Of a DNA stretch of 35,353 bases, positions 11,737 through 35,353 are shown piece by piece. Both the position numbers and the translations under genes were made by a program. Below the pieces are notes generated by a model. That model was not told the DNA's origin, did not search any database, and saw only the letters and a program-made list of their open reading frames with translations. The DNA is from Anaerolineaceae bacterium (GTDB taxonomy: Bacteria > Chloroflexota > Anaerolineae > Aggregatilineales > Phototrophicaceae). The first letter of the stretch is position 1. Each line of letters starts with the position of its first letter. The stretch spans positions 1-35,353 of the forward strand of contig REDR01000074.1 in the NCBI GenBank assembly GCA_007693385.1, written 5' to 3'.

Positions 11737-11831
11737 CGGGAGTGCATGGGAGTCGAACCCACCGTAGCCTGCTTAAACAACCTACCGCCGATTTTGAAGA
11801 CCGGGACGCTCACCGGAGCGCACGCACCCCC
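11737..11831 (-). tRNA. selC: tRNA-Sec (selenocysteine, anticodon UCA)
   Basis: Read on the minus strand, this 95-nt RNA folds as a bacterial selenocysteine tRNA. It has an 8-bp acceptor stem (GGGGGTGC with GCACTCCC, one G-U) and a 6-bp D stem with a 4-nt CGGT loop. The anticodon stem CCGGT/ATCGG carries the loop CTTCAAA, so the anticodon is TCA (11795-11797). A long variable arm runs from GTAG to CTAC. The T arm has loop TTCGACT on a 5-bp stem, giving the 8+5 helix specific to tRNA-Sec. The discriminator base is G and CCA is not encoded. The 95-nt length equals my recollection of E. coli selC. It implies that SelA, SelB, SelD and at least one selenoprotein are encoded elsewhere; none is in this window. 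Confidence 0.95.
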
Positions 11832-12051: not shown

Positions 12052-14010
12052 ATGGCGTATGGTCGCTTAGATGTCTATTGGCCGAACGGCGAATTCAAAA
12101 GTTTTCTGCTGGAAGCCGATAATACGTCTATCGGACGATCTTCAGGTTGCACGGTGGTACTCGATACCGACACGATCTCGCGTTATCACACCCGCTTACA
12201 GCGCGAAGACGAACGCACATTCATCGCCGACATGGAATCGGCGAACGGTACATTCGTCGATGGCGTGCAAGTGCCCAACGGCGAATCGCGGGAGATGTTC
12301 GGCGGGGAGGAAATCCAGATCGGGCAACTCCGCATTATCTACATCGCCGCCGACGATCAACCGACGGTCAGATTGCAAGAATCGGAGGAGACACAGCGCT
12401 ATGAACGCGGCGATCACGGCCTGCGCGTCGATGTCGTCGTGCCGGAAACCGGCATCCCGCCCGGCTCACACAAATCAGTCGAGATCAATATATCCAACGT
12501 CGGCGATGAGGAGCAGACGTATCATGTCAGCGTGACCGGACTGCCGTCCGGTTGGGGGCGTGTTAATCGCCCGACGGTGCGCGTCCTGCCCGATGATGTG
12601 GCGCAGGTGTTACTCAACATTAAGCCGCCGCGCCAGTTCGATTCCAGTCCGGGCGATTATCCGCTAACGGTGATCGTCGCCCCGTCTGATGACCCCGATA
12701 AGGCGGTAGAAGCCTATGCGCTGGTCGAGATTCTGCCGTATAACGCCTTTGCGATGGCGCTGACGCCGCGCCGCGTCACGCTGTATGATCGCCTGAGCGT
12801 GGTACTTTACAATCAGGGGAGCGCCCCGCTTCCGGTGCAGGTCGCCGCCACCAGCGCTGACGATGCGCTGATCTTCGACATCGAATCGCCACAGCGCACG
12901 CTCGCGCCGGATGAGCGCGTCACGGTGCGCGGGGAGATACGCGCCCGTCGGCGGCATATCATCGGCCAGCCGCGTGAATACCCGTTCGATGTGCTGGTGC
13001 GCTCCCGCGATGCGGCCGGATTTCTGGCGGCGATGCGCGGTAAATTCGTGGAGGATGCGCTGTTGCCGCGCTGGTCGGGGTATGCCATCGGCGGGTTGGT
13101 GCTGGGCGTGGTGATGTTGCTGGCGTTCGCGCTGGCGCTGATCTTGCAGATTGACACGGCGCGGCCAGCTATCGCGCAATTCGACGCCGACGCGGTGCAG
13201 ATCACCAGCGATCAACGGCTGGGGCTACGCTGGCAAGCGCAGAACGCCGCCAGCTATACCGTGCGCGTGAATGGCGTGGATGTGCTGGCGAACTTGCCCG
13301 CCTCCACAGTGGAAGCCAGCATCGACGCCGCGCCCTATGCCGGTCAGCGCATCGAGATTGAGTTGATCGCCAATGGTGAGAACCGGAGCGATAGCGCCTT
13401 CGTCAGCGTGCAGGTGTTGCCGGGGTTGCGCCGCGTCGCCTTCGACATTCAGCCGTCGGTACTGGTGCGACACGTCATCACGTCGATCTCGCTCGGCTGG
13501 CAGATTGACGGAGCGCTACGCACCGAATTAGAGGGCGCATCCGCGATTCGTCGCGCCGCCGATGTGCCGGTAGAAGTCGAGAGCAGTTATGGCGCGTCGG
13601 CGGAACTGAGCTTGCAGGGCTACGTTACCGACGATTTTAGCCTGACGCTGATCGCGCATGGCGTCGATGATCTGGAAAGGCGCTGGTCGCTCAATGTCGA
13701 TGTGATCGACCCGACGTGTGCGCCGACCCTGCCGGAGTTCAAGCTGTACGAGCGCCCCGACACCGCCGCCAACGTGGTGCGGACGTATGGCTCTGCGCCG
13801 GTTGATCTGATTGTGGATCGCATCGACCCGACGCAGACGTGGCTTCGCGTCCGCATTGAGGGCGGTCAACGCGCATGGGGGCAACGCGCCGAATTGAATT
13901 GTGAGGATACTTTCAGGCCGGAGGATTTGTTGATCGAAGTGCCGCAGATGCCAGAACCAACCCAACCGCCGCCGACGCCGGTGCCGACGCCGACGGAGGA
14001 CGCCGAATGA
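12052..14010 (+). CDS. Membrane-anchored FHA-domain protein with extracytoplasmic SH3-like domain
   Basis: The 652-residue protein starts with a forkhead-associated domain: IGRSSGC at 27-33, SRYHTRL at 43-49 and SANGTFVDG at 63-71. All core phosphothreonine-binding residues are present. Two beta-rich segments follow (about 115-330), the first resembling NEW3/CARDB-type Ig domains. A single transmembrane helix lies at about 344-366. The outer part holds further beta-rich sequence, an SH3b-like segment near 565-625 (KLYERPDTAANVV...WLRVRIEGG), and a Pro/Thr tail. The FHA part is expected in the cytoplasm, where it would bind a phosphorylated partner. The stop overlaps the next gene's start (ATGA), so the two are translationally coupled. 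It opens a four-gene operon. Confidence 0.85.
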   Translation: MAYGRLDVYWPNGEFKSFLLEADNTSIGRSSGCTVVLDTDTISRYHTRLQREDERTFIADMESANGTFVDGVQVPNGESREMFGGEEIQIGQLRIIYIAADDQPTVRLQESEETQRYERGDHGLRVDVVVPETGIPPGSHKSVEINISNVGDEEQTYHVSVTGLPSGWGRVNRPTVRVLPDDVAQVLLNIKPPRQFDSSPGDYPLTVIVAPSDDPDKAVEAYALVEILPYNAFAMALTPRRVTLYDRLSVVLYNQGSAPLPVQVAATSADDALIFDIESPQRTLAPDERVTVRGEIRARRRHIIGQPREYPFDVLVRSRDAAGFLAAMRGKFVEDALLPRWSGYAIGGLVLGVVMLLAFALALILQIDTARPAIAQFDADAVQITSDQRLGLRWQAQNAASYTVRVNGVDVLANLPASTVEASIDAAPYAGQRIEIELIANGENRSDSAFVSVQVLPGLRRVAFDIQPSVLVRHVITSISLGWQIDGALRTELEGASAIRRAADVPVEVESSYGASAELSLQGYVTDDFSLTLIAHGVDDLERRWSLNVDVIDPTCAPTLPEFKLYERPDTAANVVRTYGSAPVDLIVDRIDPTQTWLRVRIEGGQRAWGQRAELNCEDTFRPEDLLIEVPQMPEPTQPPPTPVPTPTEDAE

Positions 14011-14378
14011 TCCGCTTTTTAATCTCGCTGTTACTCGGCCTGTTAGTCGGCCTTGCCTTCGGGCTGGGGCTGGGCTGGGGCGTGTTCCCCACCGAGACAT
14101 ACGGCAATCCGGCCTCATCATTGGCGCAACAATATCAGGATGAATACACCGCGATGATCGCCGCCGGTTTTCAGGTGGACGGCGACACATCCGGCGCGTT
14201 AGAGCGGCTGGCGGTGCTGGGCGTCGCCGATGTGCGCCTGCACGTTCAGCAAGTGACCGAGCGCTACATCGACGCTTCGCGCCGTCTGGACGACATCTAT
14301 AATCTGGTTCTGCTGGCTGACGCGCTCGGCGTATTGACCGAGAAGATGGAGCCGTATCGCGGGGTGATCGCACCATGA
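14007..14378 (+). CDS. Small single-pass membrane protein of unknown function
   Basis: The protein has 123 residues. A Gly/Leu-rich N-terminal hydrophobic helix (about 3-27, GLLVGLAFGLGLGWGVF) would act as an uncleaved anchor. After it comes a soluble, mostly helical segment of about 95 residues (YQDEYTAMIAAGFQVDGD, then TERYIDASRRLDDIYNLVLLADALGV). I recognise no named domain. It overlaps the genes on both sides by ATGA, which argues for a stoichiometric role with the FHA protein and the following membrane protein. It could be a subunit of one membrane complex. Confidence 0.75.
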   Translation: MIRFLISLLLGLLVGLAFGLGLGWGVFPTETYGNPASSLAQQYQDEYTAMIAAGFQVDGDTSGALERLAVLGVADVRLHVQQVTERYIDASRRLDDIYNLVLLADALGVLTEKMEPYRGVIAP

Positions 14379-15376
14379 CCGACCCGACAACCACCCGTGA
14401 CGACGCGCTACGGGCGCGTGAGCAAGCCCGCAAACGGGCGGATAAGCAAAAGACGCGCAGGCGCAGTCGTTATGACCGCCCGCGCCAGACCATCATCTGG
14501 ACGGTGTTATTGTTCGGCGTGGCTGTCGGGCTGGTCTCCGGCCTGTATTACGCATGGATCATCCAGCCACTCAACGAAGCGGAGGTCGCGCCGTGGCAAC
14601 TACGCACCGCCCGCGATACCGACGACTTATTGCCGGATCGTGACGCTTACATCATGGCGATTCTGCTATCGCACGAACACGAGCCGAGTCTCGGGCAGAC
14701 CGTCCAGCGTTTGATCGACCTGCGCCTATCCACCGACGACCCGATTCAATACGTCGCTGATCTGGCCTGTCGGCTGGTGCGCGGCGGCTACGTGGATAGC
14801 AACAGCCACCGCAACGCGGTGCGTAGCATGATGCGCTTCTACCAGCAACAGGGCAAATCCGGCTGTGCTGACCAGCTTATTTTGATGGATGGCCGCGACG
14901 TGCCGACGCCGACCACCATCGTCGTACCCACCGCGACGCTAGTCCCGCCGGCCACCAAGACGCCCGCGCCGCAGACCAGCCCGACGCCGGAAACGATCAT
15001 CGAGAGCGAGCCGTTCGTCGCGCCGCCCGCGCCCACCGGTTCGTTTAACATCGTGGTATTCGAGCCGTTCTGTAACCGGCAAAATAGCGGCGTCATTGAG
15101 GTGATCGTGCGCAACATCGTCTCCGGCGAGGAGTTGCCCGGCTATCCGGTGCGCGTGACCGGCGACGGCGTGGATAGCACATTCTTCACCGGCATGAAGC
15201 CGGAGCGCGGGCTGGGCTACGCGGATTATCGCATGGCGGCGGGCGGCGTCTATAATATCGAGATGCCGGGACTCTCCGCGCCGACTTCGCGGGAAATCCG
15301 CGCATTGGATTGTCTGGATGACGTGAGCGGTGCGCCCGCTATACGCTCTTATCGCATTGTGTTTGCTGGAAATTAA
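14375..15376 (+). CDS. Single-pass membrane protein with Thr/Pro linker and extracytoplasmic beta domain
   Basis: The protein has 333 residues. A strongly basic cytoplasmic N-terminus (many Arg/Lys up to residue 37) precedes one transmembrane helix (about 39-62). Next comes a helical extracytoplasmic segment (about 65-165) with a pair of cysteines, then a Thr/Pro-rich spacer (about 172-208). The final beta-rich domain (NIVVFEPFCNRQNSGVIEV to the end) resembles an Ig or carboxypeptidase-regulatory fold and has two cysteines that could form a disulfide. Its function is unknown. Overlap with the previous gene (ATGA) and the short 27-bp gap to the second FHA gene place it inside the signalling operon. 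Confidence 0.75.
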   Translation: MTDPTTTRDDALRAREQARKRADKQKTRRRSRYDRPRQTIIWTVLLFGVAVGLVSGLYYAWIIQPLNEAEVAPWQLRTARDTDDLLPDRDAYIMAILLSHEHEPSLGQTVQRLIDLRLSTDDPIQYVADLACRLVRGGYVDSNSHRNAVRSMMRFYQQQGKSGCADQLILMDGRDVPTPTTIVVPTATLVPPATKTPAPQTSPTPETIIESEPFVAPPAPTGSFNIVVFEPFCNRQNSGVIEVIVRNIVSGEELPGYPVRVTGDGVDSTFFTGMKPERGLGYADYRMAAGGVYNIEMPGLSAPTSREIRALDCLDDVSGAPAIRSYRIVFAGN

Positions 15377-15403
15377 ATGAGTGAGTAGAGGCAATTTCTA
15401 ACG

Positions 15404-15904
15404 ATGGACGACCACGACACACAGATCAACGACACCGAACCCAACGACAGCGCGACGCCGTTTGACGTGCGTAATCAGGCGGAGGAGGCGCTCCAGCGTT
15501 TTCAGGAGACGCTACGCCAGCGTGCCGCCGAGCGCGACGACCTGCCGCAATTCGCGGGGGCGGTGCGCCTGCGCCTGCTGGTTGATGGTGCGCCGATGGT
15601 CGAGTACGTGCTGGAAAGTGACGGCGATGCCGTCATCGGGCGATCAGACCTCAAGAATCCGCTACAGCCGCACATCGACCTCAGCGAGCAGGGCGCGTAT
15701 CGCATGGGGGTGAGCCGCCGCCATGCCATGCTCCGCCTGCGCGATGGCCGCCTGCATCTGGTTGATCTGGGTAGCCGTAACGGATCGTTCATCAACGAAA
15801 ATCAGCTCATGCCGCATCAACCGATGATGATCGCGTCTGATGACGAGATACGTCTGGGGCGGATGGTGCTACGCATCGACGCGGAAGAAGCCGCCAGCGC
15901 GTGA
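15404..15904 (+). CDS. Cytoplasmic FHA-domain protein
   Basis: A 166-residue soluble protein, last gene of the operon. A polar helical N-terminus of about 45 residues is followed by one FHA domain. Its conserved elements are AVIGRSD, VSRRHAML and LGSRNGSFIN. The Arg in GR, the Ser and His in SRRH and the Asn in NG are all kept, so phosphothreonine binding is expected. It has no signal or membrane segment. Partners may be a Thr-phosphorylated protein of this operon or the large membrane kinase at 26.7-31.0 kb; this link is inference. An AGAGG-containing stretch precedes the ATG at 15404. Confidence 0.88.
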   Translation: MDDHDTQINDTEPNDSATPFDVRNQAEEALQRFQETLRQRAAERDDLPQFAGAVRLRLLVDGAPMVEYVLESDGDAVIGRSDLKNPLQPHIDLSEQGAYRMGVSRRHAMLRLRDGRLHLVDLGSRNGSFINENQLMPHQPMMIASDDEIRLGRMVLRIDAEEAASA

Positions 15905-15938
15905 TGGTCGCTTCCGGTTGAATGCGGCCTAGCGCCGC

Positions 15939-16340
15939 TTACAACCCCAGAATTTCGGTGATCTCGATGCTGGCTTTCTTGGCGGCGAATAGTACCTTAG
16001 CGATGCGGGCGTCTTTATCGACCAGCACCGCCAGCGATGCCCGCCCCGCCGGATACACCACCATCACGCCTTCTTCGCCTTCCATGAGCAGGCGCTCTAG
16101 TTCGCCCTGCGCCAACCGTTTCAGCGTGCGCTCCGCCAGCCCGATTAACGTGGCCGACATCGCCGCTACCTGCGGGCTACTGGTCGGGTTCTCGTGCGGG
16201 TTCTCTTCGTCGCCGGGCGGATAAGCGGCCACCAGTAAGCCGTCAATATTGACGATCACCGTCGCTTTTACGCCGTCAACTAGCGTGTATAGATTCCTTA
16301 GTTTGTCTTCTAAGGCTTCACTGCGATATTGTTGGGACAT
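15939..16340 (-). CDS. Roadblock/LC7-domain protein
   Basis: A 133-residue alpha/beta protein matching the Roadblock/LC7 fold: an N-terminal helix, the strand pair VKATVIVNIDGLLVAAY (24-40), a central helix, then GVMVVYPAGRASLAVLVD (91-108) and a last helix. In bacteria these proteins dimerise and commonly regulate small Ras-like GTPases such as MglA. No GTPase gene is seen here. The ATG at 16340 has a GAGAGAGG ribosome site; longer starts (16376 or the TTG at 16379) lack one. It converges on the FHA operon with a 34-bp gap. Its place beside FHA genes suggests a shared signalling role, which is inference. Confidence 0.85.
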   Translation of the reverse strand: MSQQYRSEALEDKLRNLYTLVDGVKATVIVNIDGLLVAAYPPGDEENPHENPTSSPQVAAMSATLIGLAERTLKRLAQGELERLLMEGEEGVMVVYPAGRASLAVLVDKDARIAKVLFAAKKASIEITEILGL

Positions 16341-16379
16341 AACGCCTCTCTCAAGTCGGTGGAAATAAGCCACCATCAA

Positions 16380-16493: not shown

Positions 16494-16600
16494 GACTCAT
16501 AGGGAGTGGGGGAGAGAACCGGCTTGATGAACCCACAGCAACCGCCGAAGGCTCGGAAAGGTGCTACATCCGGCAGGCACGCCGCCTGAAAGATGAGCGA
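16494..16600 (+). promoter_or_regulatory. SAM-I (S-box) riboswitch aptamer upstream of metH
   Basis: The leader has the S-box landmarks in order. The P1 stem pairs CTCAT (16496-16500) with ATGAG (16593-16597). The conserved core reads GAGAACCGGCTTGATGA, CAGCAACC and GGAAAGGTGCTACATCC. A P4 hairpin, CAGGC/GCCTG, closes the junction before GAAAGATGAG. S-adenosylmethionine binding would stabilise P1. The 3' P1 strand GAAAGATGAGCG can instead pair with CGCTCTTTC at 16622-16630, giving an anti-terminator. SAM therefore should switch metH off, matching the enzyme's role in methionine synthesis. Confidence 0.93.
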
Positions 16601-16653: not shown

Positions 16654-16725
16654 GTTATATCTCGACGATTAGCAGTCAATTCTGTTTTAACGTGATGTAT
16701 GAACGATGGAGAGGCCGAATATAAA

Positions 16726-19700
16726 ATGACCACAACAGACAACCCCGCGGGCATCCGCGCCAAACGCACATTCACCAATCGCCGCTATCTGGACGCCATC
16801 GACGACCATATCGTGCTATTCGATGGCGCGATGGGCACCAGCATCCAATCGTATAATCTGACGCCGGACGACTATGGCGGCGTCCAGTACGAAGGCTGTG
16901 TCGATTATCTGGTCATCACCCGCCCCGACATCATCGAAGCGATTCACCGGTCTTTTCTTGATGTCGGTAGCGAAGTGGTGGAGACCAATACTTTTCGCGG
17001 CAATCGCTGGACGCTGGCCGATTACGGGCTGGGGGAGCGCGTGCTGGAGATCAACCGCGCCGCCGCACAGGTCGCCCGCCGCGCCTGCGATGCGGTGGAA
17101 GCACAGACCGGCATCCCGCGCTTTGTGGCGGGGAGCATCGGCCCTTCCGGTAAATTGCCCAGTGGCGACGATCCCGACCTGAGCGACGTGACGTTCGATC
17201 AGCTTTCCGACCTGTTTTACGAGCAGGCGCAGGGGCTAGTCGAAGGCGGCGCGGATTTACTGCTCATCGAAACCAGTCAGGATATTCTGGAAGTCAAGGC
17301 GGCGGTGCATGGCATCAACCGCTATTTCGAGACCGCCGGTGTGCGCGTGCCGTTGCAGGTGCAGATCACGCTGGACGTTAGCGGGCGGATGCTGTTCGGC
17401 ACGGACATCGCCGGGGCGCTGGTCACGCTGGAAAGCCTGCCGGTTGACATCATCGGCATGAATTGTTCCACCGGCCCGGAATACATGCGCCAGCCGATTC
17501 AGTATCTGGTCGAGCGCTCATCGTTGCCGATCAGCGTCTTACCGAATGCTGGCCTGCCGATCAACGTGGACGGCGAAGCGGTGTATCCGATGGAGCCGGG
17601 TCCGTTCAGCGAAATGGTGGGCGAGTTCACGCGCTGGGGGGTGAATGTGGTGGGCGGCTGTTGTGGCACGCGCCCCGACCATCTCGGCAAGCTGTACGAG
17701 AAGATCAACGGCCACAGTTACGCCGATTATCTGCAAAAGCGAGCAGAAGCCGACATCGCCCGCCAGAAACCGACGCCGCGCACCCCGATGCACGAGCCGC
17801 AGGCTTCCTCCGCGATGACCGCCGCCCGCATGATACAGGACCCCGGCCCGACGTTGATCGGCGAGCGCGTCAACAGTCAGGGGAGCCGCAAGGTCAAGCG
17901 GTTGCTACTGGAAGACGACTACGACAGCATCGTGCAGATCGCCGTCGATCAGGTCGAAAACGGCGCTCACATGCTGGATGTGTGCGTCGCGCTGACCGAG
18001 CGCGACGACGAGCGCGAGATGATGGAGAAGGTGGTCAAGAAGCTGGCGATGGCGGTCACTGCGCCGCTGATTATCGACACCACCGAAGCCGATGTCGTGG
18101 AGGCGGCGCTGGCGGTGTATCCCGGGCGCGGCATCGTCAACGGTAACAATCTGGAAAACGGGCGCGAGCGCATCGATGCTATTCTGCCCATCGTCAAGAA
18201 ACACGGCGCGGCAGTCCTCAGCATGACGATTGATGAGGTTGGCATGGCGCACACCCGCGATCACAAGCTGGCCGTCGCGGAGCGCATCACGCAGATCGCG
18301 GTGGCGGAATACGGCCTAGCGCCGGAAGATTTGATCTTCGATGCGCTGACCTTCCCGTTGACCACCGGACAGGAAGAACTGCGTAACGATGCCATCGAGA
18401 CGCTAGAGGGCATCCGCTTGATTAAAGAGCGCATCCCGGGCGTGATGACCGCGCTGGGCATCAGCAATGTGAGCTTTGGCGTCAGTCCGGCGGCGCGTGG
18501 CGTGCTGAATAGCGTGTTCCTGTACCATGCGGTGAAGGCCGGTCTGGATATGGCGATTGTCAATCCAGCCCACATCACGCCGTATGCTGAAATACCGGAA
18601 GATCAGCGCAAGATCACCGAAGACTTGATCTTCAACAGCGACCCCGACGCCTTGCCGCGCTTCATCCAATACTTTGAAGAGAATACCGTCGAGATGGCCG
18701 GACGCGATGCGGTTGACCCCACCGCCGACATGACCACCGAGCAGGCGCTCCACTGGCAGATCGTCCACCGGCGCAAGGAAGGCGTTGAAGCGTTGATCGA
18801 CGATGCGCTGACGCGGCAGGACGCCGTCGGCGTGCTGAATAACGTGTTGCTTCCGGCGATGAAAGAAGTCGGCGATAAGTTCGGCGCGGGCGAGTTGATC
18901 CTGCCGTTCGTGCTACAATCCGCCGAAGTGATGAAGAAGTCCGTCGCCTATTTAGAGCGCTTCATGGAGAAGGTGGAAGGCTCGACAAAAGGCGTCGTGG
19001 TGCTGGCGACGGTGTACGGCGACGTACACGACATCGGCAAAAATCTGGTCAAGACCATCCTCAGCAATAACGGCTATACCGTGTACGATCTGGGCAAGCA
19101 GGTGCCGGTCAATACCATTGTCGAGAAGGCGCAAGAATACAACGCGGACGCCATCGGGCTATCGGCTCTGCTGGTCAGCACGTCGAAGCAGATGCCGCTG
19201 GTGGTCAACGAACTGGCGCGGCGCGGGCTGGAATTTCCGGTACTGGTGGGCGGCGCGGCCATCAACCGCCGATTCGGGCGGCGCATCCTGTTCTTGGATG
19301 ATAGCGGCGAGCCGTACCCGCCCGGCGTGTTCTATTGCACCGACGCCTTCGAGGGGCTGTCGGTGATGGATACGCTCATCAGCGCGGAGCGCGATGACTT
19401 CCTGAATCAGGTCATCGAAGAAGCGTATGCCGAATTGAACAAGAAGCGCCCTAAACGTGCCAACGTCGCCACGTCCGCGCAAAAGACGGTCAAGCCCGCG
19501 CCGAATGTGCCGACGCCGCCCTTCTGGGGTAGTAAGCTGGTGGAATACATGCCGCTAGAGATCGTCCTGCAACACATCCACAAGCCGGAATTATTCCGCT
19601 TGAGTTGGGGCGCGAAGAACGCACGCGGCGCGGAATGGGAGAAGATTCAGGCGGAATTCGAGGCGCGTCTGGAACGCATGGGGCGCGATGCGCTACGCCG

Positions 19701-20307
19701 CAAGACGCTACAGCCGCAGGCGGTGTATGGCTACTTCCCGGCCAACAGTGAAGGCGACGACCTGCTGATCTACGATCCGGCGCGGTACAGCGCGGACGGC
19801 GGGCGCGTCGAGGTGGCGCGGTTCAAATTCCCGCGTCAGCCCGGCGGCGAATATCTGTGCATCAGCGACTACTACGCGCCATCGGATAGCGGCGCGGTGG
19901 ACGTGGTGCAGTTGCAGGTGGTCACGGCGGGCGCGGTGGCTGATGAAGAATTCGAGCGCTTGCAGGGCGCGGATAACTACAGTGAGGCGTATTTCTTTCA
20001 CGGGCTGGCGGTGCAAACGGCGGAGGCCGTCGCCAACTACATGACGGCGCATGTCCGCCGCGAGCTAGGCATCGCTGACAATGCCGGCAAGCGGTATAGC
20101 TGGGGTTATCCGGCGTGCCCTGATCTGGACGATCACGCGATTGTGTGGTCGCTGTTGCCCGCCGAGCGCGAGATTGGCCTGAAGTTGACGGAGAGCTTCC
20201 AGATTGTGCCGGAGCAAAGCACGGCGGCGATCTTCTCGCATCATCCCGATTCAAAATATTACAGCGTCGGCAACATAGACCGCAGTGAGCAGATATTGGG
20301 CGGTTAG
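16726..20307 (+). CDS. metH: Cobalamin-dependent methionine synthase
   Basis: The roughly 1193-residue enzyme transfers a methyl group from 5-methyltetrahydrofolate to homocysteine through methylcobalamin. Domains appear in the canonical order. The homocysteine-binding barrel has zinc ligands Cys247 (GMNCSTGP) and Cys312/Cys313 (GGCCGT). The pterin-binding barrel starts near 374 (TLIGERVNSQGSRK). The B12 cap helices cover about 669-755. The Rossmann B12 domain has DVHDIG with axial His768, plus ALLVSTS and GGAAI. The C-terminal reactivation domain, from about 938, includes a PEQSTAAIFSHHPDSKYYSVG motif. The ATG at 16726 has a GGAGAGG site 11 nt upstream; the in-frame ATG at 16699 has none. 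SAM-riboswitch control fits the product. Confidence 0.97.
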   Translation: MTTTDNPAGIRAKRTFTNRRYLDAIDDHIVLFDGAMGTSIQSYNLTPDDYGGVQYEGCVDYLVITRPDIIEAIHRSFLDVGSEVVETNTFRGNRWTLADYGLGERVLEINRAAAQVARRACDAVEAQTGIPRFVAGSIGPSGKLPSGDDPDLSDVTFDQLSDLFYEQAQGLVEGGADLLLIETSQDILEVKAAVHGINRYFETAGVRVPLQVQITLDVSGRMLFGTDIAGALVTLESLPVDIIGMNCSTGPEYMRQPIQYLVERSSLPISVLPNAGLPINVDGEAVYPMEPGPFSEMVGEFTRWGVNVVGGCCGTRPDHLGKLYEKINGHSYADYLQKRAEADIARQKPTPRTPMHEPQASSAMTAARMIQDPGPTLIGERVNSQGSRKVKRLLLEDDYDSIVQIAVDQVENGAHMLDVCVALTERDDEREMMEKVVKKLAMAVTAPLIIDTTEADVVEAALAVYPGRGIVNGNNLENGRERIDAILPIVKKHGAAVLSMTIDEVGMAHTRDHKLAVAERITQIAVAEYGLAPEDLIFDALTFPLTTGQEELRNDAIETLEGIRLIKERIPGVMTALGISNVSFGVSPAARGVLNSVFLYHAVKAGLDMAIVNPAHITPYAEIPEDQRKITEDLIFNSDPDALPRFIQYFEENTVEMAGRDAVDPTADMTTEQALHWQIVHRRKEGVEALIDDALTRQDAVGVLNNVLLPAMKEVGDKFGAGELILPFVLQSAEVMKKSVAYLERFMEKVEGSTKGVVVLATVYGDVHDIGKNLVKTILSNNGYTVYDLGKQVPVNTIVEKAQEYNADAIGLSALLVSTSKQMPLVVNELARRGLEFPVLVGGAAINRRFGRRILFLDDSGEPYPPGVFYCTDAFEGLSVMDTLISAERDDFLNQVIEEAYAELNKKRPKRANVATSAQKTVKPAPNVPTPPFWGSKLVEYMPLEIVLQHIHKPELFRLSWGAKNARGAEWEKIQAEFEARLERMGRDALRRKTLQPQAVYGYFPANSEGDDLLIYDPARYSADGGRVEVARFKFPRQPGGEYLCISDYYAPSDSGAVDVVQLQVVTAGAVADEEFERLQGADNYSEAYFFHGLAVQTAEAVANYMTAHVRRELGIADNAGKRYSWGYPACPDLDDHAIVWSLLPAEREIGLKLTESFQIVPEQSTAAIFSHHPDSKYYSVGNIDRSEQILGG

Positions 20308-26689: not shown

Positions 26690-29600
26690 CTAGCGCAACG
26701 TCACGCGCCAGCCGTTCACGTTGATGAGTACGCCGCCTTCCAGCATGAAAAGCGCCGGTTCGACCAGCGCTTCCGGCGCGACGAAGCGCAACGGCTCGCC
26801 CACCGGCACATCATCGAAGAAGATCGTCACATCGCCCGTCGCCGCGTCGCGTTCCAACCGCAAGCGCGGATCAATCGCGTTGACCGAGCGCTGAATGATG
26901 AACACCTGCTCATCCCCGTCTATCAAATACAGGTTCACCGTGTTCAGGTTGACCACGCCGACGCGCACGCCGACGCGCAACGCCGGATCATTGACACTTT
27001 GCAGATAGAACCCGAAGTACACATCATCCAGATCGGTGATGGAGGGGTTGTACGTGGTGAAGGCGATGTCGGCTTCCATGCGCCGGATGCGGGCGGGGGC
27101 GCTGTTGCCGTAGGCGGTATCCAGCACGTCGCCGTCGATCATCACCACCAGATCATCGCCGCTTGATGCGTCGGCGATGCCCATGCGCCAGCCACTTGTG
27201 CCGCTTGCGGGGGCGAATTGCTCCGTCGTCCAGTCGAACGAATCCGCGTCTAATCCGGCCAGCAAATCCAGCAGACTTTGTGTGCCCTGTATGCCCTGCG
27301 GCGGCAGTGTCGGCGTCGGCGTGATGGTTGGCGTCGGCGTATCCGAAGGGGTGGCGGTGACGGTGGGTGTCGGTTCGTCGGTTGGCGTCGGCGTGGCGGT
27401 GTCGTCCGCCGGTTCGGTGGCGGTGGCGCTGGGCGCGGGTGAAGGCGTGGCGCTACTGGTCGGCGTCGGCTCGGCGGTGGGCGTGGCGGATTCCTGCGTC
27501 GCGTCAAACACGCTGGCCGGATCGGTGACGACGATCACCGCCTCGACTTCGGTAGCGGTGGCTTCCGCGTCAACGATGGCGGGCAGGCCGTCGTCGGCGT
27601 CATCGTCCGCGCCGAAATCGCCCAGCAATACCAGCGCCACGCCGCCCAGCACGATCACCGCCAGCAACAGCAGGGCGATCAGCCGGAAGGGGATCGCACG
27701 GGCGACGGGCATCGGCGCGGGGCGCTCCTCGTCGTCGTAGCGCTTGCCCAGATAGATCGCGTCTTGCGGTTCGTCCTCGTCGTGCAGGCGCGGCGTCGGC
27801 TCGTCGGTGGGCGGCGCGGGGAATTCGGGGGCGCTGTCGGTCAGGTCGTACCAGTGGCGATATAGCTCATAGGCCGGATGGCGGTCAATGAACATCGCTT
27901 TGAATAGCTCGTTGAAGCGCTCTAGCTTGGCGCTACGCCGTGCGGATTCGTCGGTGTAGACGCTCAAGAATTGTTCATACGTCTCATGCCAGTTGGTCAA
28001 CTGCGCGTGATACGGCTCACCGAGTTCGCGGGCGGTGGTTTGCGCCGCTTGCCGGTGCGCGTCGCGCACGATGGCGGGCGGTTCGGCGGGGCGACGTTCA
28101 ATCGCCTGCCGCATCTGCCGGTAGCCGTTGTGTAGCTCGGCGCTGATCGCGTTGAGGTGCGTCAGCCAGCCGATATAGCGCGATAGCTTCACGTCGGCTG
28201 AGCGTTCCGCAGAAGCCGCTAGATTCAGCGCTGAATCCAGCCGCATACCGGCATTCTTGAACTCGGCATCCGCCCACAGGCGCAGGGCGGCCTCGAATTC
28301 GCGCAGGCTTTGCGCCGCATCCTGTAAGACGCGGGCTTCGGCGTGTTCGTTGAGCGTCCGCCGCACGGAGTCCACCGTTTCCAGCGCGGCGGGCTGATGG
28401 ATCGCGTTCAGCGCGGCGGATGCGTCGTTGATCTGCCGCCGCCGCTCGATGAATTCCATCAGCGCGAGCGTCGCCGGATGTCGTCCGCCGTAGTCGCCTA
28501 GCGTCCGCGCCGCGACTTCGCGCCAGAAATCGGCGTCTTCAAGGTTTTCGTCGTGGGCTTCTATCGCGCCGAGCAACACCGCGTTGAAGAAGAAAAGTTG
28601 TAGCGCCGGTGTACTGTGGCGGCGATAAGCGTCGATCAAGCCCTTGCCCATCGCTTTGAGGTACGTCTCGCGGGTGGGCATCTGCATGGCGAAGCGTTCA
28701 CGCTCGCGCAATTCGGCGTCGGTGTATAGCGCCTCCGTCGCGTCGAGCGCGGTCTGCGTGCGGGCTTTGTCGGCCACGCCGCCGCGTTCGATCCATTCGC
28801 GCACGATACCGGCCAATTCGCGCAATCGACGGGCGGCTTCGCGTCCGATCTCGTCGTTGGCGATCTCTAGCGCACGCTGGCCGAGTTGCTCCGCTTCGGC
28901 TGGCCGCCCGCGATCAAACGCCTCATAGCCATCGGCCAGCGCCCGCCCCAGCCCGCCGAATAGCGCGTGACGTTGCACATACGCCGCGCCCGCCACCACT
29001 GAATGCAACTGATTCAGCCATCCGGCCAGCGTCGGGCTGACTGTCTGCACGCCGTTTGCGGCCTCATCCAGCGCGGACAGGCCGCCATCACGATCACCGA
29101 TGATCGCGCAATCGGCATAGCGCCGCCATTCTGCCGCCGTCGCTGATACGCCGGATACCATGTTATCCAGCATTTCGTCGGACAGCCGTCCGGTATAGGC
29201 GCTCAACTGGCGGGCGGCGGAATCCAGCCACGCGGCCAGATCGCTCCCGTCGGCGGCGGGCACGTATGTTTGATACGATTGCAGTAATTCGTAGAGCGCG
29301 TTCAACCAGCCGCCCAGCCGTTCCCATAGCGGGCTGGTGGGGTCGATGGCGCGACTGCCGTCCAGCGCGACCAGCGCATCGCGTGGGCTGGCGGCGGCCT
29401 GCTTGCCGATGACGTGCATATTGTCCGCCAGCGCCATGCCCGCATTGATGGCACGATCCAGCGCATTGAGTGGCAGGCGGCGGTTGGGCAGGCGCTCCTG
29501 TACCATCAACGTGGATAGCCGCTTGTTGAGCAATGTCAACTGATCGACCACCGCGCGGTATGCGTCGCGCAATTCGGCCATGTCCGGCGCGAACCCGCCG

Positions 29601-31033
29601 TCGTCGGTTTGTCCGCGTCCGGCGATGTCGTCCAATAGCGCGTCCGTCTCCTGCAAGATACGGCCTGCTTCGGAGACTTCCACGCCATCGCGCTTGAGAT
29701 CATCCAGCGCCAGAGTCAGCCGGTACAGGTTGGGGCGGAGCAGTAGCACGTCGGTCATGCGCGATGAGATGCGCTCCGCCAGTAGCCATTGCGTCTTGCG
29801 GGCCTGATCGTCCGGCGTGTCAGTGGTCAGCAGGGTGGCGGCAGAGGCGATCATCTTGCCTTTGAACATGAAATCCACCGCGTCGGCGACGGCGGGCGGG
29901 TTGGCGTCCAGATCGGCCTCCAGCATCAACAACGCGCAATCCAGCAATAACTCGACAAGGCCGGTGGTATTCGTACCGGCTTTGTCGCGCAATTCGTTGA
30001 GCAAATCCGCCGCTTTCGGCCAATTGCCGCCGGTCATGTAAATCTTCACCGCGTCCAGATCGGCCTCAACCTCTAAATCGCGCAGGCGGTCTTGAATCTC
30101 GGCCTGCGATTTGCGCGTGGACGGATAGCCCGGGTCGAGTTGCGCGGCGGGTTGCAGGGTGTGGTTTAGCCCGCGCAATTCGACTTTGCTCAGATGGCGG
30201 CGCAGGCGCTCGTTGACGTGGCTCAGCACGTTGTCGCGTTCGCGCTCTAGCGGGCGGCGATAGTCGGCCAGATCGCGGCGCAGATCGTCGGCGCTGGCGT
30301 AACGGTGTTTGATGTTGGGGTGTAGCGCTTTGCTGACGACGCTCTGTAAGGTGCGCGGGACGCGCTCCGCGTCTTCGCCGAAATCGACGTGAAAATCGGC
30401 TGGTGCGTCGCGGTTGATCTCCGCCCGCTTGCCGCCGGTCAGGATGAAATACAGCAACTCCCCGACCTGAAAGACATCGGTCTGGCGGCTGATGCCCTGC
30501 GGGGTGGCGGTGTCGCCCTCCAGAAAGACCGCGTTGCCCCAGTCGATCAACTTCAGCCGGTATTGTTCGCGGCTCCAGAATAGATGCTTGGCGTCCACGT
30601 CGTTGTAGATCACATCTTTGCTGTGGGCGGCGGTCAACAAGTCGAGCAACTGGTCAACGATGACCAGCATCTCAAGCTGGGGCAGGCGCTCGCCGCTACG
30701 CGAGAGCGTCAGCACGGTATCGGCTACGATCATCCCGGCGGCGCGTTCCACCACGATATATTGATGTGGTTGCCCGCCGACGAAGAATTGCCCTTCGTCT
30801 AGCACTTCGGTCAGCACCGGATGGCCGGCCAGCCGTTTGAGCGCCTTGCGCTCGTTGAGGATGCTGACCTCCTGACCGGCGCGGATGGGGGGCGCGTCGT
30901 TGGGCGCGGGGCGCTTGACCACCACCGGACGATCATCAGCACCGGTGTCTATCGCCCGCAATGTTTCGCCACTGCGCCCACGCGGGTAGATGTAATCGTA
31001 GCGATAGCGATTATCAAACAGGCTGTCCGCCAT
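26690..31033 (-). CDS. Large membrane Ser/Thr-kinase-like protein with atypical catalytic loop and extracytoplasmic sensor
   Basis: The 1447-residue protein starts with a kinase-like domain (about 10-265). The ATP-binding lysine is present (VVVKRP, Lys40). The catalytic loop reads VIYNDVDAKHLFW, so HRD becomes YND: Asp145 stays but the Mg-binding Asn is His150. The DFG motif is DWG (Asp164). A long helical cytoplasmic part (about 270-1080) of unknown fold follows. One transmembrane helix lies near 1112-1134. Outside are a Thr/Pro/Ala-rich spacer (about 1150-1225) and a beta-rich, lectin-like C-terminal domain. It may sense an external ligand and phosphorylate FHA partners, or be a pseudokinase. 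GGAGAAA precedes the ATG. Confidence 0.85.
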   Translation of the reverse strand: MADSLFDNRYRYDYIYPRGRSGETLRAIDTGADDRPVVVKRPAPNDAPPIRAGQEVSILNERKALKRLAGHPVLTEVLDEGQFFVGGQPHQYIVVERAAGMIVADTVLTLSRSGERLPQLEMLVIVDQLLDLLTAAHSKDVIYNDVDAKHLFWSREQYRLKLIDWGNAVFLEGDTATPQGISRQTDVFQVGELLYFILTGGKRAEINRDAPADFHVDFGEDAERVPRTLQSVVSKALHPNIKHRYASADDLRRDLADYRRPLERERDNVLSHVNERLRRHLSKVELRGLNHTLQPAAQLDPGYPSTRKSQAEIQDRLRDLEVEADLDAVKIYMTGGNWPKAADLLNELRDKAGTNTTGLVELLLDCALLMLEADLDANPPAVADAVDFMFKGKMIASAATLLTTDTPDDQARKTQWLLAERISSRMTDVLLLRPNLYRLTLALDDLKRDGVEVSEAGRILQETDALLDDIAGRGQTDDGGFAPDMAELRDAYRAVVDQLTLLNKRLSTLMVQERLPNRRLPLNALDRAINAGMALADNMHVIGKQAAASPRDALVALDGSRAIDPTSPLWERLGGWLNALYELLQSYQTYVPAADGSDLAAWLDSAARQLSAYTGRLSDEMLDNMVSGVSATAAEWRRYADCAIIGDRDGGLSALDEAANGVQTVSPTLAGWLNQLHSVVAGAAYVQRHALFGGLGRALADGYEAFDRGRPAEAEQLGQRALEIANDEIGREAARRLRELAGIVREWIERGGVADKARTQTALDATEALYTDAELRERERFAMQMPTRETYLKAMGKGLIDAYRRHSTPALQLFFFNAVLLGAIEAHDENLEDADFWREVAARTLGDYGGRHPATLALMEFIERRRQINDASAALNAIHQPAALETVDSVRRTLNEHAEARVLQDAAQSLREFEAALRLWADAEFKNAGMRLDSALNLAASAERSADVKLSRYIGWLTHLNAISAELHNGYRQMRQAIERRPAEPPAIVRDAHRQAAQTTARELGEPYHAQLTNWHETYEQFLSVYTDESARRSAKLERFNELFKAMFIDRHPAYELYRHWYDLTDSAPEFPAPPTDEPTPRLHDEDEPQDAIYLGKRYDDEERPAPMPVARAIPFRLIALLLLAVIVLGGVALVLLGDFGADDDADDGLPAIVDAEATATEVEAVIVVTDPASVFDATQESATPTAEPTPTSSATPSPAPSATATEPADDTATPTPTDEPTPTVTATPSDTPTPTITPTPTLPPQGIQGTQSLLDLLAGLDADSFDWTTEQFAPASGTSGWRMGIADASSGDDLVVMIDGDVLDTAYGNSAPARIRRMEADIAFTTYNPSITDLDDVYFGFYLQSVNDPALRVGVRVGVVNLNTVNLYLIDGDEQVFIIQRSVNAIDPRLRLERDAATGDVTIFFDDVPVGEPLRFVAPEALVEPALFMLEGGVLINVNGWRVTLR

Positions 31034-34855: not shown

Positions 34856-35353
34856 CTACGCATTACGGCGGCGACGCACGAACAGCAATAACGCCAGAAA
34901 CACCGCCAGCCCGCCACCACAGATGAACGGCAAGAACTCCTGTATTTGATCGGTGAATGTTGCGCCCGGATCAGGATCATCGACTTCAACGATCTGCACC
35001 GGCGTCACCGTTGGCACCGGCGTATCGGTCACGTCGGCGGTTGCGGTGGCCTGCGCGTCGCGTGTGGCTTCGGCGTCGGCGGTGGCTTCGGCGGCCAGCG
35101 TCAGGCCGATAGCAGTGCTTTCCGCGTCGCGTGTGGCTTCGGCGTCGGCGGTGGCTTCGGCGGCCAGCGTCAAGCCGATGGCGGTGCTTTCCGCGTCGCG
35201 TGTCACTTGCGCGTCGGCTGTCGCCTGTTCGTCAGCGCGGGTTTGCGCGATGCTGGTGGCCTGCGCGATGTTGGTCGCCACCGCGTCGGCGGTGCCCTGT
35301 GCTTCGATTTCGGCTTGCGCGTCAGCAGTCGCTTGCGCGTCTAACTCAGCCTG
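34856..35353 (-). CDS. Ala/Thr/Asp-repeat protein with C-terminal membrane anchor (5' end outside window)
   Basis: The reading frame is open to the window edge, so the N-terminus is missing; 165 residues are visible. The visible part is built from repeats of 23 residues (ATRDAESTAIGLTLAAEAT then ADAE), two full copies plus degenerate ones. This Ala/Thr/Glu/Asp composition suggests an extended or helical stalk. Next come a Thr/Pro-rich spacer (TDTPVPTVTPV), a C-terminal transmembrane helix (LPFICGGGLAVFLALLLFV) and an RRRRNA tail. The layout of spacer, helix and Arg tail suits a surface protein held in the membrane by its C-terminus. A GTG at 35281 is an internal Val codon, not a likely start. 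Confidence 0.7.
   Translation of the reverse strand, partial: QAELDAQATADAQAEIEAQGTADAVATNIAQATSIAQTRADEQATADAQVTRDAESTAIGLTLAAEATADAEATRDAESTAIGLTLAAEATADAEATRDAQATATADVTDTPVPTVTPVQIVEVDDPDPGATFTDQIQEFLPFICGGGLAVFLALLLFVRRRRNA
35054..35191. repeat. Two tandem 69-bp repeats inside the surface-protein gene
   Basis: Copies 35054-35122 and 35123-35191 differ at only a few bases (for example AGGCCGATAGCAGTG against AAGCCGATGGCGGTG), with partial copies on both sides. The near-identity suggests recent duplication. Confidence 0.85.

Follow-up and report, generated by a model that had tools for sequence, protein, structure and literature searches.

Three consecutive genes of an Anaerolineaceae bacterium (Chloroflexota), here called P1, P2 and P3, form a retained operon encoding a membrane FHA protein followed by two smaller membrane proteins, and we tentatively read their products (with a probability of about 0.4) as a membrane-spanning signalling complex, with phosphothreonine docking inside the cell and envelope reading outside it. 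The genes lie in a stretch of 35,353 nucleotides of contig REDR01000074.1 (assembly GCA_007693385.1), referred to below as the window, in a genome of 3.59 Mb and 137 contigs. Open reading frame calls place P1 (12052-14010, 652 aa), P2 (14007-14378, 123 aa), P3 (14375-15376, 333 aa) and P4 (15404-15904, 166 aa), the last encoding a soluble FHA protein, head to tail on the plus strand, with a Roadblock/LC7 gene (15939-16379; start at TTG 16379 or at an internal ATG at 16340) facing P4 on the minus strand. Read directly in the sequence, P1/P2 and P2/P3 share ATGA stop/start overlaps of 4 bases each (14007-14010 and 14375-14378), P3 and P4 are separated by 27 bases, and the stops of P4 and the Roadblock gene stand 34 bases apart, tail to tail. 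Hydropathy assigns a single hydrophobic segment to each of P1 (residues 349-367), P2 (4-22) and P3 (39-57), and none to P4 or the Roadblock protein. An earlier note on this DNA, made from the sequence without database searches, had described four tightly linked genes with two ATGA overlaps and a converging Roadblock gene, a description borne out by the gene calls, by direct reading and by Pfam. It had also proposed that all five genes form one candidate signalling system; a system built on the retained P1-P2-P3 operon is plausible, whereas the union of all five genes is unsupported.

Four of the 98 genomes of the family, which represent three genera, have P1 next to P3 (the window's own, G266, G284 and G285); adjacency was taken from compared match positions, and broken contigs may hide further cases. 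P1 and P2 are spaced between -4 and +4 bases (a 4-base overlap in L101/L124, 3 bases in L102/L130 and 4 bases in L131, which lies at the positions of the locus of G285), and P2 and P3 overlap by 4 bases in all P1-linked loci. The P3 proteins of the four P1-linked genomes form one clade with support of 100/97 among 66 rows, while those of the other three are only 48-54% identical to the window's protein. The joined forms thus point to a single join that has long been kept. Since P1-P2-P3 recurs tightly in three other genomes, and since 98 of the 109 distinct loci contain P2-P3 as a tandem, the coupling goes beyond what chance would give.

The domain order of P1 is an FHA domain, two Ig-like domains predicted to lie inside the cell, a membrane helix, predicted external Ig/Fn3-like domains, a weak SH3-like end and a Pro/Thr tail. 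The FHA domain (residues 25-91; 12124-12324, plus strand) scores 57.7 bits in Pfam against a cut-off of 20.7, and G28, R29, S43, R44, H46, N65 and G66 are invariant across the four aligned P1 rows; the residues that we take to be canonical for FHA domains (Gly-Arg, Ser-x-x-His and Asn-Gly) are present in both P1 and P4. A match to Yop-YscD_cpl, a domain of the type III secretion protein YscD of the inner membrane (40.3 bits, cut-off 33.2), covers the FHA stretch itself, which scores higher as FHA. The first Ig-like domain (residues 121-230; 12412-12741, plus strand) is FixG_C/NEW3-like, with a FixG_C score of 25.8 bits (cut-off 25.6) and a fold match to 2r39 (Z 11.3, root-mean-square deviation 2.5, 106 residues aligned); a second beta domain lies between it and the membrane helix. 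The helix (residues 349-367; 13096-13152, plus strand) was located by hydropathy and appears as a helix at residues 351-364 of the structural model, with a low predicted local distance difference test score (pLDDT). The SH3 match at the end of the protein reaches 12.6 bits against a cut-off of 24.1, and no Pkinase match was found in P1 with Pfam up to E 1. In G266, P1 (L101:7587-10268, plus strand) is an 893-aa protein whose predicted external part is duplicated.

The closest parallels to P1 are large Ser/Thr kinases of the same phylum. In all eight fetched loci the region of P1 behind its FHA domain aligns behind a kinase-FHA arrangement (E 1.4e-26 to 1e-14), and all seven of the larger proteins that were scanned carry Pkinase and FHA domains with a P1-like region behind them; these relatives were chosen from long partial matches and are not a random sample. 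Because its FHA-Ig part sits behind a kinase in these proteins, in the same order, P1 resembles a receptor Ser/Thr kinase of this phylum minus its kinase domain. It differs from them in lacking the kinase and in overlapping P2, and the alignment extends as far as the P1 membrane helix in only five of the eight (L217-L221). The retained FHA residues and the kinase-FHA relatives fit the phosphothreonine signalling suggested in the earlier note, whereas phosphothreonine binding itself is only predicted from sequence. Two multidomain proteins stood out: a single protein (L222:3108-7319, minus strand) combines a ParA/MinD-type ATPase with Ser/Thr kinase, FHA and GON domains, and a 2119-aa protein of the window's family (L224:1702-8058, plus strand) contains two stretches that match kinases and four that match FHA. 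By hand count, P1 is matched over at least 500 of its 652 residues in 80 of the 98 family genomes, the matches in G201, G290 and G322 starting behind the FHA domain. The part behind the FHA domain is present in 13 of the 15 same-order genomes of the class sample; in other orders, most matches with an E value of 1e-8 or lower are partial, and a few (G057, G085 and G109) approach full length.

P2 and P3 had been taken for two separate unknown membrane proteins. They are indeed unnamed, with no convincing match in Pfam, NCBIfam, PADLOC or PDB sequences: neither has a Pfam match up to E 1, and NCBIfam returns nothing for P2 and a single line at E 0.19 for P3. Among 34 P3 members scanned with Pfam, two gave a weak Big_1 match (best E 0.0031), other families appearing in single members only. 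The idea that they are two unrelated proteins was rejected: comparison of the two profiles with hhalign (probability 99.9, E 1.3e-31, 113 columns, 19% identity) identifies P2 and P3 as paralogues sharing a membrane helix and a helical domain. Part of the alignment is the membrane helix, but it continues through the helical domain. A single-sequence search of the window's genome with P2 did not show P3, and the paralogy rests on the separate profile comparison because the iterated profiles had already absorbed the other protein. The alignments kept 33 of 42 P3 rows plus the window (A1), 24 of 30 P2 rows plus the window (A2) and 65 of 76 rows plus the window (A4).

The shared helical domain of P3 (residues 88-158; 14636-14848, plus strand) has four helices in the model and is possibly TPR-like; Pfam gives no TPR match for it in either protein, and PDB profile matches are weak (E 0.046-0.5), to designed helical-repeat/TPR proteins and coatomer epsilon. 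Matches to the beta domain took up the P3 fold search, which therefore barely probed the fold of the helical part. Beyond this domain P3 carries a Thr/Pro linker and a beta domain that is probably CnaB/transthyretin-like (residues 224-332; 15044-15370, plus strand), as seen in a model with a pLDDT of 85.8. Fold matches of the beta domain, over about 80 residues, are led by 6fwv_A (Z 9.3) and 3kpt_B (Z 8.4), followed by one at 8.0; lower rows (Z 6.9-7.8) show mostly the same fold, and the best Foldseek E value, 1.4e-3, is weak. Within this domain Cys233 is present in all, and Cys313 in 98%, of 66 P3 rows. A juxtamembrane motif resembling Y-x-R-P-R occurs in several P3 rows of the window's family.

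The P2-P3 tandem is far more widespread than its union with P1. A P3 query finds matches in 143 of 249 genomes of the class and in 94 of 98 of the family, and a P3 profile in 109 of 301 genomes across the phylum; outside the class the profile matches are weak (best 4.7e-18), many lying within the Thr/Pro linker. From 136 confirmed relatives 80 loci were kept and merged with 40 further ones; 118 of these 120 loci hold P3, and dropping 9 repeats left 109 distinct loci. Counts from the 41-, 80- and 40-locus sets and the merged set differ because the sets and distance limits differ, and the merged count is used for the tandem, which is present in the 98 loci given above. Six of 79 P3 loci in the 80-locus set have no called tandem partner (L143, L149, L166, L193, L195 and L199). 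P2 and P3 overlap by 4 bases in 55 of 96 pairs, repeats included, and one isolate, Ornatilinea apprima (L194), carries them. Of the 80 loci, two are labelled Pleurocapsa minor (L144) and Bacteroidetes (L148), all others Chloroflexota or its groups; these two labels may be wrong, L144 grouping among Chloroflexota rows in the P3 tree, whose rows do not include L148. P2-P3 is probably an older tandem of the class, and it usually stands without FHA neighbours.

P4 and the Roadblock gene behave as a separate conserved pair, and their link to P1-P2-P3 is doubtful. The FHA domain of P4 (residues 77-152; 15632-15859) scores 54 bits in Pfam and the Robl_LC7 domain of its neighbour 49.6 bits (cut-off 23). 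The two genes stand tail to tail in all 14 pairs seen, on 12 distinct contigs; Roadblock genes occur in 16 of 120 loci, and an FHA gene lies within 1.5 kb in 14 of them, the exceptions being L067 and L198. In relatives the pair lies kilobases from P2-P3, about 5 kb behind P3 in L101, and among the loci seen P4 directly follows P3 only in the window. The search for conserved synteny in Chloroflexota that the earlier note had proposed therefore recovers P1-P2-P3 in four genomes and P2-P3 widely, whereas no locus seen other than the window showed all five genes in this order; as one conserved system the five genes were rejected on synteny. The suggestion that the Roadblock protein regulates a GTPase is only a guess, because a Pfam scan of 17 of the window's proteins, a subset of its genes, revealed no small GTPase and because the protein scores 14.8 bits with the NCBIfam MglB equivalog, far below the cut-off of 200. 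The Robl_LC7 domain is what it has in common with the MglA/MglB polarity module.

The commoner neighbours of P2-P3 are an extracytoplasmic function (ECF) sigma factor/anti-sigma pair with a tRNA-Leu(CAA) gene, or a cyclic-nucleotide-binding membrane protein. Upstream counts refer to the 91 distinct loci in which 3 kb or more of upstream sequence is available, downstream counts to the 99 with room; genes were assigned as sigma or anti-sigma from a single example of each kind scanned with Pfam and from profiles built on these examples, and the tRNA searches covered 45 and 60 sources, not all. A divergent ECF gene lies within 3 kb in 39 of the 91 loci (42 when either strand is counted), an anti-sigma gene is near by in 42, and tRNA-Leu(CAA) lies within 3 kb in 44, oriented like P2-P3 in 42 of these. 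Divergent ECF gene and tRNA occur together in 37 loci, and the tRNA without a divergent ECF gene in 7. Around P1, by comparison, 18 control loci gave one ECF gene within 3 kb and no tRNA-Leu(CAA) anywhere (anti-sigma genes were not counted). A cyclic-nucleotide-binding-profile protein directly follows P3 in 8 of the 99 loci, 7 of which also have the divergent sigma gene; all eight proteins have a hydrophobic segment, each of the three that were scanned has four cyclic-nucleotide-binding domains, and four of the eight (L056, L080, L178 and L199) also contain the end domain of P3.

The sigma block is separate from P2-P3 in the window's genome. No ECF/anti-sigma pair was found beside the window's operon, none of the 6 ECF matches lying on contig C6. 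The best ECF relative, 58% identical, is on another contig (C74:89861-90451); the gene that follows it looks anti-sigma-like, with two hydrophobic stretches (judged from sequence, no domain scan having been made), and tRNA-Leu(CAA) adjoins the ECF gene (L214:6547-6627) without P2-P3. Since sigma gene, putative anti-sigma gene and tRNA thus sit together on another contig, the window's P2-P3 is apart from that block.

On the reading that we favour, the FHA domain of P1 would dock, inside the cell, proteins threonine-phosphorylated by a cellular Ser/Thr kinase (the window's genome has 16 kinase matches), while on the outer side the three proteins, P1 with its Ig/SH3-like domains and P2 and P3 with their helical and CnaB-like domains, would contact one another as well as a ligand that is extracellular or part of the envelope. 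The two sides would be coupled through the three membrane helices, the P2-P3 tandem having probably been joined once to P1 in the window's lineage. We infer this mechanism from domains, gene coupling and fusions, and the same applies to the sidedness of the domains, the mutual binding of the three proteins, FHA-phosphothreonine binding, the direction of the signal and the ligand. An outside position of the parts past the membrane helix is consistent with the cysteines, all of those of P3 and two of the three of P1 lying there.

Several observations weigh against this complex. Membrane topology was derived from hydropathy, charge and cysteines only. With a mean pLDDT of 69 the P1 model is of middling quality, and it is poor over the FHA part and much of the N-terminal part, so that the FHA assignment rests on the Pfam match. 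FHA genes are common in the window's genome (20 matches), and an FHA neighbour is therefore not rare. No other gene of that genome carries the Ig-Ig-transmembrane part of P1. No conserved Thr motif that could serve as an FHA target was seen by eye in the N-terminal P3 tail. P1 and P2-P3 are, moreover, unlinked in almost every other genome of the family that contains both.

Alternatively, the three proteins may form an envelope scaffold, in which P2 and P3 would be short surface proteins that P1 anchors to the wall by its external end, while its FHA domain would tie them to a phosphoprotein in the cytoplasm. The CnaB/transthyretin-like tip of P3, of the kind found in pilins and adhesins, suits such a structure, as do the Thr/Pro stalk that carries it, the weak SH3 match at the end of P1 and the second external copy in P1 of G266. 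We nevertheless regard a scaffold as rather unlikely, since P2 has neither stalk nor tip, and a regulatory role is indicated by the FHA domain, by the domains that bind cyclic nucleotides and by the sigma/anti-sigma pair so often found as neighbours. Those neighbours suggest another reading, which we consider unlikely: that P2-P3 belongs to the ECF/anti-sigma pair, sensing the envelope and setting the grip of the anti-sigma factor on the sigma factor, and that P1 joined later. The frequencies of divergent ECF and anti-sigma genes (39 and 42 of 91 loci, against an ECF gene in 1 of 18 P1 control loci) speak for it, as does the retention of an ECF gene and a putative anti-sigma gene in the window's genome. 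Yet a divergent ECF gene within 3 kb is missing from 52 of the 91 loci, and in 43 of the 45 divergent stretches (L043, L046, L061 and others) tRNA-Leu(CAA) separates the two units, so that slow rearrangement around the tRNA could by itself produce the linkage. In L214 (the window's genome), L129, L145 and L155, where the two blocks are no longer together, the tRNA has remained beside the sigma gene, a pattern qualified by the 7 loci with the tRNA near P2-P3 and no divergent ECF gene. An ECF promoter shared by the sigma gene and P2 was sought and rejected: the enriched bipartite motif, present in 40 of 45 intergenic regions where no single shuffle gave more than 7, is the T arm and 3' end of the tRNA-Leu(CAA) gene.

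The arrangement could also be neutral, P2-P3 having landed behind P1 to be co-transcribed with it while working apart, and P4 and the Roadblock gene being near by descent only. The joined forms are a single clade, P1 and P2-P3 are apart in most of the family, and the five-gene order was seen in the window only, all of which agrees with chance relocation. However, three genera have retained the tight coupling even as roughly half of the P3 residues changed, which argues for selection and makes neutrality improbable in our judgement. A broader proposal, possible but rather doubtful, is that P2-P3 is a class-wide envelope-sensor core of the Anaerolineae with exchangeable cytoplasmic readers: FHA here, cyclic-nucleotide-binding domains elsewhere and an ECF output in many genomes.

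Among known systems, the GarA/OdhI and FhaB/FipA types share the FHA part, over which both P1 and P4 are hit by the NCBIfam models for FhaB and OdhI, although P1 scores far below their cut-offs (50.9 against 125 bits and 49 against 200 bits, respectively), and P1 differs in having a membrane helix and predicted external domains. ECF sigma factors with membrane zf-HC2 anti-sigma factors accompany P2-P3 elsewhere but are absent at the window's locus. The end domain of P3 probably has a fold like that of the CnaB-type pilin and adhesin domains of Gram-positive surface proteins, at 8-17% identity in the top eight rows, and possesses two conserved cysteines. PADLOC defence models gave no match to the five proteins up to E 0.01. 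No description of the arrangement was found in the literature searched, which lay mostly outside subscription journals and includes passages of PMC7159879 and PMC8195603.

Elsewhere in the window, a tRNA-Sec gene with anticodon TCA (11738-11831, minus strand) lies just upstream of P1 on the opposite strand, and promoter-like and terminator-like scans gave nothing decisive. Downstream of the Roadblock gene, an S-adenosylmethionine (SAM) riboswitch (16494-16599, plus strand) precedes metH, which encodes a cobalamin-dependent methionine synthase (16699-20307). A 1447-aa protein (26690-31033, minus strand) has a kinase match of 31.3 bits, just below the Pfam cut-off of 31.7, and is possibly a degenerate kinase. 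An open frame with a short repeated Ala/Thr/Glu/Asp-rich unit and no Pfam match runs to the window's end (34856-35353, minus strand).

These results define an unnamed pair of membrane proteins across a large and little-studied class, tied to FHA domains, cyclic-nucleotide-binding domains and ECF sigma factors. If the proposal of a common sensor core is true, it would represent a new modular form of signalling across the membrane, with gene exchange wiring a single external sensor to several second-message systems. Should the parts interact, they would illustrate how intracellular readers are exchanged on a common external sensor in bacteria, and would provide protein pairs to test; should they not, the locus would be a caution against reading the operon of one genome as a system.

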